A DNA stretch of 64,000 nucleotides, from NCBI RefSeq assembly GCF_027923555.1, contig NZ_AP025523.1:1802484-1866483 (forward strand), written 5' to 3'. Within the stretch, counting starts at the first letter, position 1, and every line of letters starts with the position of its first letter. This document shows positions 1,473 through 12,832 of the stretch, in pieces. Both the position numbers and the translations under genes were made by a program. This stretch comes from Vulcanimicrobium alpinum. GTDB lineage: Bacteria; Vulcanimicrobiota; Vulcanimicrobiia; Vulcanimicrobiales; Vulcanimicrobiaceae. The notes below the pieces were generated by a model that saw only the letters and a program-made list of their open reading frames with translations, was not told where the DNA came from and ran no database searches.

Positions 1473-1955
1473 TCAGGTTCTCCCGGCGATGGTGCGTTCG
1501 AGGAATCGCAGAACGCGCGTGAGCGGAAAGTCGCGCGCATCCAGCGGCTGCGTGAGCAGCGTGCGCAGTCCGACCAACTTCGCCCCGAGCACGTCGGTGA
1601 AGAGCTGGTCGCCGATCACGATCGTCGCGCCGCGCGGCGTGCCGAGCAGACGGAGCGCGCGCACGAACGCGAACGGCAGCGGTTTGAGCGCGTTCGGCAC
1701 CACCGGGATGCCGAGCTGCGCGCCGACCGACCCGACGCGTTCGGTGAAATTATTCGACACGAGAACGAGCGCGAAGCCGCGCTGCTGCGCCGTTCGCACC
1801 CAGTCCGCGACCCCGGGTGCAAGTTCCGGCCGGCGGTACTCGCAGACGGTGTTGTCGAGGTCGACGACGATGCCGCGGATCCCGAGCGCCGCGAGTTCGT
1901 CGAGGGAGACGTCGGGCAGCGTCTGGGCGTGATGGTCGGCGCGGAACCTCTCCAC
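1473..1955 (-). CDS. YqeG-family HAD-IIIA phosphatase
   Basis: About 160 residues from a GTG at 1953-1955. The frame stays open upstream, but only from this point does the sequence match the family. Motifs are VVDLDNTV (the catalytic Asp pair), LVSNN, a Lys in NALKPLPF and the acidic IGDQLFTD loop. YqeG proteins are small cytoplasmic HAD phosphatases, often linked to ribosome-associated GTPases or mitochondrial-type phosphatidylglycerophosphate phosphatase. The exact substrate here is unknown. It is the first gene of a minus-strand operon and is divergent from nrdJ, so the two may share the intergenic control region at 1956-2230. Confidence 0.8.
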   Translation of the reverse strand: MERFRADHHAQTLPDVSLDELAALGIRGIVVDLDNTVCEYRRPELAPGVADWVRTAQQRGFALVLVSNNFTERVGSVGAQLGIPVVPNALKPLPFAFVRALRLLGTPRGATIVIGDQLFTDVLGAKLVGLRTLLTQPLDARDFPLTRVLRFLERTIAGRT

Positions 1956-2077
1956 GCTATCCCCGGTTCCGTCCACAGCCCGCTCACCCCGCTCGCCGGG
2001 CCTCCACAGGCGAGCCCCGATCCATCCCCGGGAAAAAGAAGTTCTCCGCTCCCCCTCCACAAGGTCCTCGGACTGCG

Positions 2078-2123
2078 ATACAATATCTAGTACAGCCCGG
2101 CGGCGTAGACCACTAGATAGTGT
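2078..2123 (+). promoter_or_regulatory. Two NrdR boxes upstream of nrdJ
   Basis: Two 16-bp sites resembling the NrdR consensus (acaCwAtATaTwGtgt) lie at 2078-2093 (ATACAATATCTAGTAC) and 2108-2123 (GACCACTAGATAGTGT). Their starts are 30 bases apart, close to the three-helical-turn spacing known for NrdR box pairs. NrdR is the ATP/dATP-sensing repressor of bacterial ribonucleotide reductase genes. The site lies 30-75 bases upstream of the predicted -35 element. Its position next to a ribonucleotide reductase gene is strong support. Confidence 0.8.
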
Positions 2124-2152
2124 GCCGATACCGCCCGATGGCACGATTGGAC

Positions 2153-2182
2153 TTGACGAAGTACGAACGTATGTTCGATACT
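2153..2182 (+). promoter_or_regulatory. Predicted sigma-70-type promoter of nrdJ
   Basis: A TTGACG -35 element (2153-2158) and a GATACT -10 element (2177-2182) are separated by 18 bases. Both match housekeeping consensus well. They sit about 50 bases upstream of the nrdJ start, with an AAAGAGG ribosome site ending 8 bases before the ATG. The spacer holds the LexA box. Confidence 0.65.
2164..2177. promoter_or_regulatory. LexA (SOS) box inside the nrdJ promoter
   Basis: CGAACGTATGTTCG is a perfect 14-bp palindrome and fits the Gram-positive type LexA/DinR operator (CGAAC-N4-GTTCG). It fills the spacer between the -35 and -10 hexamers, where a bound repressor would block RNA polymerase. This predicts that the reductase is induced by DNA damage. 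LexA itself is not in the window. Confidence 0.75.
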
Positions 2183-2230: not shown

Positions 2231-5200
2231 ATGAAGTTCTCGCGCACCTACTCCGCTCCCGGCGATCCCTACGCCGGTCTGTCCTTCGATGCGCGCACCT
2301 CGCGCATCGCCAACCCCGACGGCAAAGTGGTCTTCGAGCTCAAGGACGCGCAAATCCCGAGCGGCTGGTCCCAGGTCGCGACCGACATCATCGCCCAGAA
2401 ATACTTCCGCAAGGCCGGCATCCCCGACACGCTCCTCAAGGTCCCCGAGGACGGCGTCCCCAAGTGGCTCTGGCGCTCGGAGCCCGCGCCCGGCGCGAAA
2501 TTCGGTCCCGAAACCGACGCTCGCCAGGTCTTCCACCGCCTCGCCGGCTGCTGGACGTACTGGGGCTTCAAGCACGGCTACTTCGACGACGAGTTCCAGG
2601 CCCGCACGTATTACGAGGAGATGTGCGCGATGCTGGCGCGCCAGATCGGCGCCCCCAACTCACCGCAGTGGTTCAACACCGGCCTGCACTGGGCGTACGG
2701 CATCGCCGGCCCCGCACAAGGGCACTGGTACGTCGATCCCAAGACCGGCGACCTCGCGCAGTCGACGTCCGCGTACGAGCATGCGTCCGCACACGCGTGC
2801 TTCATCCAATCGGTGCGGGACGATCTCGTCAACGAGGGCGGCATCATGGACTTGTGGGTCCGTGAGGCACGCATTTTCAAGCATGGCGCGGGCACCGGCT
2901 CCGACTTCTCCAACATCCGTGCGGAGGGCGAGCGCCTCTCCGGCGGCGGCACGAGTTCCGGCCTCATGTCGTTCTTGCGTGTCGGCGATCGCGCTGCGGG
3001 TGCGATCAAGAGCGGCGGAACGACGCGACGTGCTGCCAAGATGGTCGTGCTGAAACTCGACCACCCCGACATCGAAGATTTCATCACGTGGAAAGTGACG
3101 GAGGAGCAAAAGGTCTCCGATCTCGTCGCCGGCTCCATCACCTGTGAGAAGCATCTCAATGCGATCCTCCGAGCAGCGTATGACGAAACGATTCCGGAAT
3201 CGGCACGACTCGACCCCGCGCTGAACCCTGCGCTGCGTTCTGCGATCCGTGCATCGCTCTCCGCTGGTATTCCGCAAGGAAACGTCCAGTACGCGCTCGA
3301 TTTTGCTCGTCAGGGCTATCGGGAATTGGTAATCGAGACCTACGACACGAATTGGGATTCCAAGGCGTATGGGACGGTCTCCGGCCAAAATTCGAACAAC
3401 TCTATTCGAATTCCGAACGAGTTCTTCGCCCGACTCGATGCAGGTCAGACCTGGGATCTCACATCGCGCACGAACGGCACGGTGATGAAGTCCGTGCCTG
3501 CAGCAGACCTGTGGGAACGAATCGCCGTTGCAGCATGGCAATGCGCCGATCCTGGGGTGCAGTACGACACCACGATCAACGAATGGCATACCTGCGCAGT
3601 CGACGGACGCATCAACGCCAGCAATCCGTGCAGCGAATACCTTTTCCTCGATGATACCGGGTGCAACCTAGCAAGTCTGAACCTCGTCACGTTTCTCGCA
3701 GAAAATGGGCATTTCGACGCGAAGCGCTTTGCGGAAGCCTGCCGTATCTGGACGTTCACCCTCGAGATCACCGTGCTGATGGCGCAATATCCGTCACGCG
3801 AGATCGCCAAACGTTCGTTCGAGTACCGCACGCTCGGCCTCGGTTATGCGAATATGGGCACCTTGCTGATGCGCCTGGGGCTGCCGTATGATTCGAACGA
3901 AGGATTCGGCTGGTGCGCCGCCATCTCGTCGTTGATGACGGGTGCTGCGTACAAGACGTCCGCGGAGATCGCGCGCGAACTGGGCGCCTTTGCTGCGTAC
4001 GATCGCAATCAAGAATCGATGGGGCGCGTTCTCCGAAATCATCGTCGAGCAGCGTATGCGGCGCCGAACGAAGAGTACGAGGAGCTCACGGTAACGCCCA
4101 CGACGCATCAGCCGACGCTGTTCACTCAAGAGACGTGGGCCCTCGCACGTTCGACGTGGGACAACGCGCTGGCCATCGGCGAAGTCGCGGGTTACCGCAA
4201 CGCCCAAGTGACGGTCATCGCGCCGACGGGGTGCCTCGTTGGGGAAACGCTCGTCGCCACCGACCGCGGTTTTGTGCGCCTCGATCGGCTGGGCAATGTC
4301 GACGGCGATCAGTGGCAAGACGTCGACTTCCGCGTCCTTACCGACGATGGCGAACAGAAAGCGACGAAATTCTATATCAACGGCGTGGAACGCACGCGCA
4401 AGATCACGACGGCAAACGGCTATGTCATCCAGGGCACGCCGGCACATCGCGTCAAGGTCGTCGACCCGGCGAGCGGAGATCTCGTCTGGAAGCGTTTCGG
4501 TGATATCGGCTCCGACGATGTCGTCGCGCTTTCGATGGGAGCGCTCGTCGGAGCACCCCACAGCGTTGCACTCCCGCCGCTTGGCGAAGAATACTGGACG
4601 GCCGATTACACAACGCGCGTCCCGCGTACGGTCACCGCCGAACTCGCGGAAATCGTCGGCTACTTCATGGGCGACGGGTCGCTGCATTCGGAAGGTCTGC
4701 GGTTTTGCGTCGCCGCGGCCGACCACGACGTGCTCGAGCATCTCTCGGCGCGTATCCGGACGTTGTTCGCGATCGAACCGCTGGTAAGCGATAAGGGCGG
4801 GTACTTCGAGCTTGCTGCAAATTCCGTCGCCTTAACGATGTGGTGGGAAGCTTGCGGCTTTGCGAAGCTTCCTTCAACCGCCGATCATCGAGGGAAGGGC
4901 TATGTGCCCCGCATTCCCGATGCTATTCTGGCCACCAATGATCCAGTGATCTACGCTGCGTTTCTGCGCGGTCTCTACGAAGCCGCCGGAACAGTGACCA
5001 ACGGCGCGGCCTGCTGGTCGACGGTCAACCGCACGTTCTCGGAAGACGTGAAGGCGGTTCTGTTGGGTCTGGGTATTCCGACGAGCACGAAGATTGACAC
5101 GACGGGTTGGGGACAGAGCGATCGGTACGTTCTGCGCGTGCGCAACGCGGCATACGCTCAGACGTTTGCGGAGCGGATCGGCTTCTTGGGAAGCCGAAAA

Positions 5201-7081
5201 CAGCAAGCGACCGTCGTATCGACGGCAGTCCAAGGCACCCACGGAGACGCGGTTTCCCTTCCCGACGATCTCGTCCGCTCTCTCGTGCCGACCTCTAACG
5301 AACTGTATTCGCGCGTGCAGTTATACCGCCATCCGAACGATGGTGCGATCAGCCGCGCCTCGGCCACCGCGCTTCTCGAGCAAACGGAGCATCCCCAAGT
5401 CACCGCAGCGCTCAACTTCTTCTACGATCGCGTCGCATCGAACGAAGACGGCGGCGAGCGCCTGACGTACGATCTTTCCGTGCCTGCCAATGTCACGTAC
5501 GTCGCGAACGGGTTCATCTCGCACAACACGATCGGCCTTGTCATGGACTGTGATACGACCGGGATCGAGCCGGATTTCGCGCTAGTGAAATTCAAAAAGC
5601 TCGCGGGTGGCGGCTACTTCAAAATTGTCAATCAATCCGTCGAGCCTGCGTTGCGCCGGTTGGGGTACAACAACGACCAGATCGCAGCCATCGAGACCTT
5701 CGCCAAAGGCACGAACACTCTTGAAGGTGCACCGCACGTCAATCGAGCGACGCTCAAAGCGCGCGGATTTGACGACGATGCGCTAACGCGCGTCGAGGCG
5801 GGCCTTCCTGGAGCGTTTGATATCGGCTTCGTGTTCAATCAGCACGTGCTCGGCCTGGAGTTCTGCAAACAGAACCTCGGCATGACCGATCAGCAGCTCG
5901 CCGATTGGAATCACTCGATCCTGCGCGATACACTTGGTTTCACGAACGCGCAGATCGAGGAAGCATCCGACGTCATCTGTGGCCGGATGACCCTCGAGGG
6001 TGCGCCGTTCCTCAAGGACGAGCACTTGCCGGTTTTCGACTGCGCGACCCCGTGCGGCAAACACGGAGCGCGATTCATTCGCCCCCTCGCGCACGTCGAC
6101 ATGATGGCGGCGGCGCAGCCGTTCGTTTCCGGTGCGATCTCCAAAACCATCAACCTTCCCCAGTCGGCGACGATCGCCGACGTCAAGGAAGCCTACCGCT
6201 ATTCGTGGGAGCGGATGGTCAAGGCGGTCGCCCTTTACCGCGACGGCTCGAAGCTCTCGCAGCCGCTCGCCGCGAGCTATGACATCGGCGGCGGAGACGA
6301 CCTCGATCAGCCGCAGACCACCGGCTACGACGGCCCGGTCCGCGTCGCCGAGCGCGTCGTCTACCGGTACATCGCCAAGCGCCGGCGGATGCCGGATCGC
6401 CGCGGCGGCTACACGCAAAAGGCGGTCATCGGCGGCCACAAAGTCTATCTGCGTACCGGCGAGTACAACGATCAGTCGCTCGGCGAGATCTTCATCGACA
6501 TGCACAAGGAGGGCGCCGCCTTCCGCAGCCTGATGAACAATTTCGCGATCGCAGTGTCGCTCGGGCTGCAGCACGGCGTACCGCTCGAAGAATATGTGGA
6601 CGCGTTCACGTTCACACGCTTCGAGCCGAACGGCCCGGTCGTCGGCCACGAGAACATCAAGATGGCGACGTCCATCCTCGACTACATCTTCCGCGAACTC
6701 GCCGTGAGCTATCTCGGCCGCTACGATCTCGCACAGGTGCAGCCGTCGCAAGCCGTAGACGCGATGGGCCCGGAACCCGAGTACGTCGGCGAAGAGGAAA
6801 TGGAAGTCCGCACCTACACGCAACCGAAGGCGATCGCGCCGGCCGCAACGCCCCCCCCCGCGACGCCGGTCACGCGCACTCCTGAACCCGTCGGGGTCGT
6901 CTTGGTAACGCCCACCGTGTCCGGAACCGCGAAAGGTCAGATCGTCGCGGCGAAGGCACGCGAAGCGATTGCCAAAGGCTACAGCGGTGATGCCTGCACG
7001 CAGTGCGGTCAGTTCACGCTCGTACGGAACGGCACGTGCCTGAAGTGCGACAGTTGCGGAACGACCAGCGGTTGCTCGTAG
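2231..7081 (+). CDS. nrdJ: Adenosylcobalamin-dependent ribonucleotide reductase (class II) with intein
   Basis: The 1616-residue precursor loses a 432-residue intein to leave about 1184 residues, a normal length for bacterial NrdJ. The enzyme makes dNTP precursors from ribonucleotides using a B12-derived radical and no oxygen. Visible signatures are the [11 protein letters not shown] loop, NPCSEY (the radical-bearing Cys), GCNLASLNL, and a C-terminal Cys cluster (CTQCG...CLKCDSCG...GC) that carries reducing equivalents. An AAAGAGG site ends 8 bases before the ATG. NrdR boxes and a LexA box lie upstream and a perfect terminator downstream, so the gene is probably monocistronic. Codons ending in A or T are about 11% near the 5' end (hand count, 64 codons) but about 39% at 3182-3421 (80 codons). 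The middle of the gene therefore looks foreign. Confidence 0.97.
4232..5527 (+). other. Intein in NrdJ with LAGLIDADG endonuclease domain
   Basis: Residues 668-1099 of the precursor. It begins with Cys right after IAPTG, has splicing block B with GTPAHRV, and ends FISHN before Thr (TIGL), the expected nucleophiles for splicing. The insertion point is the nucleotide-binding/active-site APTG-TIG segment, a known intein site in ribonucleotide reductases. The first LAGLIDADG-type helix reads [10 protein letters not shown] with its catalytic Asp. The second reads [10 protein letters not shown], where the expected Asp is Ala. Splicing should work. Homing cleavage is probably weak or lost. Confidence 0.93.
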
Positions 7082-11466: not shown

Positions 11467-12832
11467 AGTCAAGTCCCAAATCTGCTGTAATTCCGGTTCG
11501 TCGATCGCGTTAGTTAGGCTGCTCGTCTGTCTCGTTTTACGGCGGCCGGCTTGGCCACCGTCGTTGCTTTCCATTCGAAGTATTCGGTCATGTCGAAGTA
11601 GGCTCGGCCTAACCATTCGTCGTTTTGCTCGGAGAGTAGCGCGCCGACCATGCGAATCGCCGCGGCGTCGTTTGGGAAGATGCGAATGACTTTCTCCCGG
11701 CGACGAATCTCTTCATTGAGCCGCTCTTGCATGTTGCTCGTGCGCAGTCGCCGGCGATATTTCTCCGGCAGCGGCAAGATCGCAAGCATGTCTTCGAACG
11801 CTCCTTCCAAGCACACGCACGACTTGGGCGCCGTTTCTACGAAGCGGGCCATGAATTCCGCATATCGACGCTCGGCCTCTTTGCGATCAGTTGCGAGGAA
11901 GATCAGCCGAGCTGCAGCGGTTACGTTTTCGCGTTCTTTCTTGGGCGCGTGATCGAGCAAGTTCTTCATCACGTGGAACTGGCAACGCTGCCATGTCGCG
12001 CCGACGAATTGCTTGGCGATCGCCTCGCGTAAGCCCGAGTGATTGTCGGAGACGGCAACGTCGACGCCGTGCAAGCCGCGTGCTTTGAGGCCGCAAAAGA
12101 ACTCGTTCCACGTCGCAAAGCTCTCCGAATCGCCGATCGAAAGACCAAGGATCTCGCGGTATCCGTCAGCACGAATGCCGCTCGCGATGAGCAGCGCTTT
12201 GCTGACGACGCTCTTGTCGGTGCGCACCTTCGTGAAGAGCGCGTCAACGATGATGAATGGGTACGCTGCGTCGAGCCGGCGATTCAAGAATCCCGCGACC
12301 GGTTCGTTGAGTGCCTTCGTAAGGCGACTTACCGTCGATTTCGAAAACGACGTCCCGCAGAGGCCTTCGGTTATCCGCGTGACCTTCCGCGTCGAGACGC
12401 CGTTGACGACCATCTCCATCAGGCCCACGACGAAGGCTTGTTCGCTGCGGCGATAACGCTCGAAGATGTCGGTTGAGAAGCTGCCGTCGCGCGTCTGCGG
12501 CACGCGCAGGACCAGCGAGCCGACGCGGGTCGAGAGCTGTCGATCGCGATACCCATTTCGATAGCCCTCCCGTTCTTCACAGCGCTCGTACCGCTCGGCG
12601 CCCAGATGATCGCGCATCTGTGCCTCGAGCACTTGGTTGAGAATCACTTCGACGAGTTTGCCGAGCGCCGCCGGCTGATCAAGCAAAGCTGGAATCGCGT
12701 CGCGGGATAGGGTAAGATCGTAATCGGCCACCGTTTCGGTCCTTTCGATTGAGGTGTTGAACAACGTCAATCTTCGAACCGGGGCGGTGGCTACCCGCCC
12801 GCTCAATTTACATCAATTATACGGACTCGGCC
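11467..12832 (-). mobile_element. IS256-family element, copy 1 (complete, 1366 bp)
   Basis: On the minus strand the element opens GGCCGAGTCCGTATAATTG and closes with the complement of AGTCAAGTCCCAAATCTG. These are imperfect terminal inverted repeats very like IS256 ends. It carries one intact transposase gene. Its length equals the third copy at 14641-16005 within one base. It abuts a partial copy in the same orientation. Confidence 0.9.
11514..12731 (-). CDS. IS256-family (mutator-type) transposase, copy 1
   Basis: The 405-residue DDE transposase has the family's N-terminal GYRNGYRDR and VPQTRDGSF motifs. The catalytic core includes the Asp in IIVDALFTKVR and the second Asp in VAVSDNHSGL, followed by the CQFHVMKN Cys/His helix typical of IS256. 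The Glu lies in the NEEIRRREKVIRIFPN region. The GTG start (12729-12731) has AAAGGA about 7 bases upstream. A frame extending to 12806 exists only through a TTG that is absent in the other full copy, so the shorter start is preferred. The protein is nearly identical to copy 3, suggesting recent activity. Confidence 0.93.
   Translation of the reverse strand: MADYDLTLSRDAIPALLDQPAALGKLVEVILNQVLEAQMRDHLGAERYERCEEREGYRNGYRDRQLSTRVGSLVLRVPQTRDGSFSTDIFERYRRSEQAFVVGLMEMVVNGVSTRKVTRITEGLCGTSFSKSTVSRLTKALNEPVAGFLNRRLDAAYPFIIVDALFTKVRTDKSVVSKALLIASGIRADGYREILGLSIGDSESFATWNEFFCGLKARGLHGVDVAVSDNHSGLREAIAKQFVGATWQRCQFHVMKNLLDHAPKKERENVTAAARLIFLATDRKEAERRYAEFMARFVETAPKSCVCLEGAFEDMLAILPLPEKYRRRLRTSNMQERLNEEIRRREKVIRIFPNDAAAIRMVGALLSEQNDEWLGRAYFDMTEYFEWKATTVAKPAAVKRDRRAA

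Follow-up and report, generated by a model that had tools for sequence, protein, structure and literature searches.

A LexA box conserved upstream of nrdJ points to joint LexA and NrdR control of a class II ribonucleotide reductase gene in the Eremiobacteriia

Is the ribonucleotide reductase gene nrdJ of Vulcanimicrobium alpinum a direct target of the SOS repressor LexA as well as of NrdR, and is such a link a peculiarity of this locus or a property of its lineage? The question is raised by the sequence upstream of the gene, in which two NrdR-like boxes are followed by a palindrome of the Gram-positive LexA type. The host group consists of soil bacteria that have been little studied. The genome is a single contig of 3,508,363 bases, and the stretch of DNA that was analyzed, called the window in the following, comprises 64,000 nucleotides (genome positions 1,802,484 to 1,866,483) and has a GC content of 67.5%. 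Vulcanimicrobium alpinus WC8-2 is listed with a genome of 3.50 Mbp, a GC content of 68.4%, and as an aerobe (PMC9758169). The coordinates of all features are compiled in Table 1.

Table 1. Features of the nrdJ locus (window positions) and LexA boxes at other genes (genome positions)
Feature	Position	Strand	Basis or remark
YqeG family HAD IIIA-type phosphatase, divergent neighbour, outside the proposed circuit	1473..1952	-	TIGR01668 over cut-off
Promoter-like site P1, TCCACA (2056-2061)-17-TACAAT (2079-2084)	2056..2084	+	Consensus scan; -10 within NrdR box 1
NrdR-like box 1, ATACAATATCTAGTAC	2078..2093	+	NrdR consensus comparison, relatives
NrdR-like box 2, CCACTAGATAGTGTGC	2110..2125	+	32 bp after box 1, start to start
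Promoter-like site P2, TTGACG (2153-2158)-18-GATACT (2177-2182)	2153..2182	+	Sigma-70-like consensus scan; layout as in imuA-like/imuB-like promoters; proposed LexA-repressed SOS promoter
LexA box, CGAACGTATGTTCG, in P2 spacer	2164..2177		Perfect palindrome, 5+5 arms
nrdJ, B12-dependent class II ribonucleotide reductase, 1616 aa including intein	2231..7081	+	NF005736 and TIGR02504 over cut-off
Intein inside nrdJ, approximate limits, LAGLIDADG_3 domain	4232..5530	+	TIGR01445 residues 668-741, TIGR01443 residues 1079-1100
LexA boxes upstream of lexA	2841088 (one mismatch), 2841146		TIGR00498
LexA box upstream of recA	1302719		TIGR02012
LexA box upstream of dnaE2-like gene	89711		DnaE2 is best match below curated NCBIfam cut-off; gene cut by locus end
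LexA box upstream of imuA-like gene	110597		ImuA is best match below curated NCBIfam cut-off
LexA box, one mismatch, 19 bp before imuB-like ATG	106435		IMS family (family search, Pfam)
LexA box upstream of alkB-like gene	2078011		AlkB is best match below curated NCBIfam cut-off

The NrdJ protein matched four class II family models, i.e. PF08471, PF02867, NF005736, and TIGR02504, all over their cut-offs, and the named records nearest to it include Candidatus Eremiobacterota. The spliced, intein-free product is predicted to be an adenosylcobalamin-dependent class II reductase. Across the class, the nrdJ open frames range from about 1,100 to 2,800 aa, and the match is interrupted close to query residues 191 and 221, an indication that inteins have inserted at several points. 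Elsewhere in the window, a long open frame (11514-12806, minus strand) is near-identical to frames at two other loci of the genome (L030:5405-6622 and L031:4270-5487, both on the minus strand), and these frames presumably represent a multi-copy transposase.

The search for NrdJ yielded one locus in the present genome. A class III enzyme was not found in this genome, and a class I small subunit was not found in 79 of the 81 genomes of the class, the present one included. Because NrdJ is the only reductase found, a link to LexA would concern the whole de novo dNTP supply. The earlier note had put the emphasis on an oxygen-independent dNTP supply. This emphasis was not borne out, as no other reductase was found and the host is probably an aerobe. 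Class II reductases need no oxygen and tolerate it, and oxygen independence is therefore not where the interest of the locus lies.

The scans were based on the known consensus sequences of LexA and NrdR boxes. A perfect Gram-positive-type LexA palindrome between the -35 and -10 hexamers of nrdJ had been described before, and exactly this arrangement was found. The box is situated in the spacer of the promoter-like site P2; base 2177 is common to the box and the -10 hexamer, and otherwise the box lies between the two hexamers. Dinucleotide shuffles of the 250-bp region that precedes nrdJ produced an exact box in 4 of 5000 cases. In the window, two exact CGAACN4GTTCG sites were present, compared with 0.39 expected from shuffles. 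The stricter pattern CGAACRNRYGTTYG yielded three matches, compared with 0.24 expected, and at least three matches were reached in 0 of 100 shuffles; these matches represent the site upstream of nrdJ, counted on both strands, and one site within the nrdJ coding region.

LexA is encoded in the genome and contains both a DNA-binding domain and an S24 peptidase domain (TIGR00498 over cut-off). The motif found at nrdJ is shared by the upstream regions of lexA, recA, and the imuA-like, imuB-like, dnaE2-like, and alkB-like genes of the same genome. The earlier note had proposed a genome scan for such a site at recA, lexA, and imuB-like genes, and had named a LexA regulon with a different motif as the result that would speak against its reading. 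The scan bore out the proposal, as the SOS genes share the motif and the nrdJ box is conserved in the class (see below). In the promoters of the imuA-like gene (TTGACA-17-TACACT) and the imuB-like gene (TTGACA-17-TACTCT), the LexA box is located between the hexamers, and the order and spacing of TTGACA, LexA box, and -10-like hexamer are as at nrdJ.

Some further sites were observed in the genome. At 3033188 (L028:3769-3999, minus strand), a perfect palindrome adjoins an open frame of 76 aa whose N-terminus is hydrophobic and which is followed by uvrA. The frame had no family match and is a candidate for a small SOS protein. A perfect CGAACRTAYGTTCG palindrome at 3171586 (L030) is located 70 bp upstream of an mraZ frame in a division and cell wall cluster, and might possibly provide an SOS input into cell division; filaments of up to 92 um are mentioned in PMC9758169 for a cultivated relative. 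At 3182112 (L031), an open frame of 126 aa, which overlaps with a gene of the sigma-70 family, has the fully symmetric CGAACATATGTTCG in its upstream sequence. A one-mismatch LexA box at 2305510 (L039:1041-1478, minus strand) is situated in a TTGACT-17-TAGGAT spacer, upstream of a 145-aa open frame that had no match in Pfam or NCBIfam.

Each of the two NrdR-like boxes upstream of nrdJ is degenerate when viewed alone, with four mismatches to ACACWATATATWGTGT. As a pair, they agree with the consensus at 24 of 32 positions, and this score was reached in 0 of 2000 shuffles. The pair that had been reported in the earlier note is thus real, while its distance had to be corrected from 30 bp to 32 bp. 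The mean pair score over the 75 loci of the class set described below was also highest at 32 bp when spacings of 20 to 44 were compared. NrdR is encoded in the genome (TIGR00244, over cut-off), and the boxes (2078-2125) are putative NrdR binding sites, in agreement with the proposed tie of nrdJ to NrdR. A consensus promoter scan upstream of nrdJ revealed two sites, P1 and P2, compared with 0.1 expected in shuffles. Relatives from the same genus mostly have TTCACA-17-TACAAT at P1. In most nrdJ loci of the family (f1), NrdR box 1 is preceded by a short CACAAGG-like element, which in the own genus overlaps the -35 hexamer of P1. The locus had been pictured as one promoter with two inputs. However, the NrdR boxes overlap the separate upstream site P1, and thus two promoters, one for each regulator, appear to be the better picture.

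Taken together, it is quite probable that nrdJ is a direct member of both the LexA (SOS) regulon and the NrdR regulon, and two tandem promoters would be the best fit in the genus. P1, which is overlapped by the NrdR boxes, would provide the basal supply of NrdJ and would be closed by NrdR when dNTPs are plentiful. P2, with the LexA box between its hexamers, would stay off as long as LexA is intact and become active once damage causes LexA to cleave itself. The opening of P2 would then deliver more dNTPs for repair and translesion synthesis, regardless of the NrdR feedback. In this way, DNA damage would probably act directly on the supply of DNA precursors and increase it. A comparable logic is found in yeast, in which reductase genes are damage-inducible. 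LexA binding, repression, and induction at nrdJ, as well as the division of labour between the promoters and the basal role of P1, are what we infer from the sequence.

Searches with the N-terminal part of NrdJ matched 79 of the 81 genomes of the class, with no match in G028 and G029, and at least 129 of the 149 genomes of the phylum. The class set contained 75 upstream regions of 250 bp from 74 genomes, and a further 24 loci, 22 of them in the class, were taken among the phylum matches listed. Five genomes with only weak, partial matches (G001, G019, G050, G059, and G069) and the weak second matches of G034 were left out of the class set. Weak or partial matches were likewise left out of the phylum set, including that of the own-genus genome G127, for which the N-terminus was not covered by the available sequence, and those of families f4-f12 and f14-f16.

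In the class set, 56 of the 75 regions contained an exact box and 10 a box with one mismatch, compared with 0.035 and 0.63, respectively, expected for a shuffled set of 75 loci. Among the further 24 loci, 19 had an exact box and one had a box with one mismatch. For the class, this amounts to 86 of 97 nrdJ loci, with 75 exact and 11 one-mismatch boxes. The box was absent in 11 loci, namely all eight of g17 and one each of g9, g13, and g14. The idea that box-less loci belong to genomes that lack LexA was rejected, because g17, g9, g13, and g14 have LexA; at the g17 lexA loci examined, the LexA boxes were kept in four of four cases. For 33 representatives, the median pairwise identity of the upstream regions was 0.43, yet 28 of them had exact boxes and two had boxes with one mismatch. 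When the 72 loci with a box at -95 to -20 were aligned at the box, the arms contained 1.69-2.0 bits per position versus mostly less than 0.25 in the flanks, and the central 4 bp occurred in 19 different forms. At the lexA loci, a box with at most one mismatch was present upstream in all 31 cases examined (28 in one scan, plus three clipped loci that were scored apart), which indicates that the motif is that of LexA itself in this class.

Outside the class, the box was present in neither of two nrdJ loci from another class of the phylum. It was also absent, at up to one mismatch, from 78 of 80 named nrdJ loci of many phyla, a few of which had short upstream sequences of 79-196 bp, and the two carriers were Eremiobacterota. 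Thus, nrdJ appears to have joined the SOS regulon in this lineage specifically. The alphaproteobacterial GTTC-N7-GTTC repeat was found upstream of nrdJ in three of the 80 named loci, and GAAC-N4-GTTC in one more; in lineages with other LexA motifs, SOS control of nrdJ could operate through those motifs.

The position of the box relative to the NrdR boxes differed between families. In the own genus, it follows NrdR box 1 at a distance of about 86 bp and occupies a spacer between TTGACR-like and GATAMT-like hexamers. A clear P2, defined by at least 5/6 and at least 4/6 matches in the hexamers and a box in the spacer, was present at 13 of the 72 loci, including eight of the ten own-genus loci and both loci of g46. 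Elsewhere in family f1, the box follows NrdR box 1 by about 73-78 bp in most genera, and clear hexamers are frequently lacking there. The box precedes NrdR box 1 by 17-18 bp in family f2 and mostly by 40 bp in family f3; in the latter, a second and weaker site frequently follows after another 88 or 103 bp. At the f3 loci L090, L094, L100-L103, L119-L121, L123, and L124, the NrdR boxes lie between two LexA-like sites whose spacing is about 88 or 103 bp, which is perhaps a looping arrangement. The reversed-pattern control was often as frequent as the motif in the genomes of f3, and thus the claim for this family rests on position and not on genome-wide enrichment.

The association of the box with nrdJ has outlasted the rearrangement of the upstream region, which, as a reading of the layouts, suggests that the link itself has been under selection. 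On balance, we lean towards the view that in the Eremiobacteriia the only reductase is a direct LexA target, and that the SOS response lifts the whole de novo dNTP supply, bypassing NrdR via a second promoter. The link would have been kept through most of the history of the class, despite the movement of the LexA site relative to the NrdR sites.

Could the palindrome have arisen by chance in a GC-rich genome in which CGAAC is common? The genome contains 33 exact CGAACN4GTTCG sites, about two thirds of which fall within predicted genes, so that a motif match alone is weak evidence; furthermore, some exact site is present in each of the 81 class genomes. Nevertheless, a chance origin of the nrdJ palindrome is hardly credible and was rejected, based on the shuffle controls, the reversed control pattern, which occurs once in the genome, and the conservation of the box at the nrdJ loci of relatives. 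In addition, CGAACRTAYGTTCG makes up only six of the 33 exact sites in 3.5 Mb, the nrdJ site included, and the other five are all outside predicted genes. It is also very improbable that another repressor with a similar recognition binds the palindrome and that LexA has no part at nrdJ. Other helix-turn-helix repressors can use CGAAC-type palindromes, but the motif occurs at every lexA locus examined and, in the present genome, also at recA and the dnaE2-like, imuA-like, and imuB-like genes, and the LexA DNA-binding family has a single match in this genome.

The main alternative that was considered is a different role of LexA itself. LexA might mainly modulate the NrdR-controlled promoter or serve as a roadblock to it, and P2 would then be a chance resemblance or a feature of the genus only. 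This would suit most other genera of the family, in which the box lies between the promoter and the start codon and lacks good hexamers. We regard it as unlikely, because strong hexamers flank the box in the own genus and in g46, in the layout of the imuA-like and imuB-like promoters. The tandem arrangement of an NrdR-controlled P1 and a LexA-controlled P2 is thus the reading that we prefer for the genus.

The level of dNTPs influences both the capacity for repair and the frequency of errors in translesion synthesis. With a sole reductase under LexA, alongside the imuA-like, imuB-like, and dnaE2-like genes, one could test directly if SOS mutagenesis draws on dNTPs supplied by the SOS response. 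The group includes a cultivated species for such tests, and the genera without the site offer natural controls.

In comparison with known systems, the genome resembles the Gram-positive-type LexA/SOS regulon (CGAAC-N4-GTTCG) in the box, in the domains of LexA, and in the boxes at lexA, recA, and translesion polymerase genes, but differs in that a ribonucleotide reductase would be a member. As in the NrdR regulon, NrdR is encoded and nrdJ is preceded by two boxes with a separation of about three helical turns; the LexA box in the same upstream region is a difference. Term searches of the main texts on the LexA regulons of Streptomyces venezuelae (PMC9380542), Vibrio (PMC3323433), Cyanobacteria (PMC3091678), and gut metagenomes (PMC3998124) yielded no mention of nrd or ribonucleotide; nrd genes were also not found in the main text of a further study on LexA or the damage response (PMC12288472), and the one ribonucleotide passage of PMC8565304 concerns misincorporation. 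A description of LexA control of nrdJ was not found among the open-access papers searched.

In some other organisms, damage raises the expression of reductase genes. The nrdAB genes of V. cholerae were induced by mitomycin C, but LexA did not bind the nrdA promoter (PMC5963079). For nrdAB of E. coli, independence from LexA is stated in PMC2556686. These damage-induced genes are LexA-independent, whereas nrdJ has a LexA box here, and direct LexA control of a reductase thus looks unusual. The class II reductase gene nrdJ of Halobacterium sp. NRC-1 is UV-induced (PMC2556686); this organism is an archaeon, and the respective passages do not describe LexA-based control. In Streptomyces, lexA (SCO5803), nrdR (SCO5804), and nrdJ (SCO5805) have consecutive locus tags in PMC9739823, which suggests that the genes are neighbours, and a passage of PMC12161575 reports a prediction that NrdR regulates lexA. 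The prediction for Streptomyces thus has NrdR acting on lexA, whereas in the present genome LexA boxes are found at nrdJ, and lexA is located about 1 Mb away.
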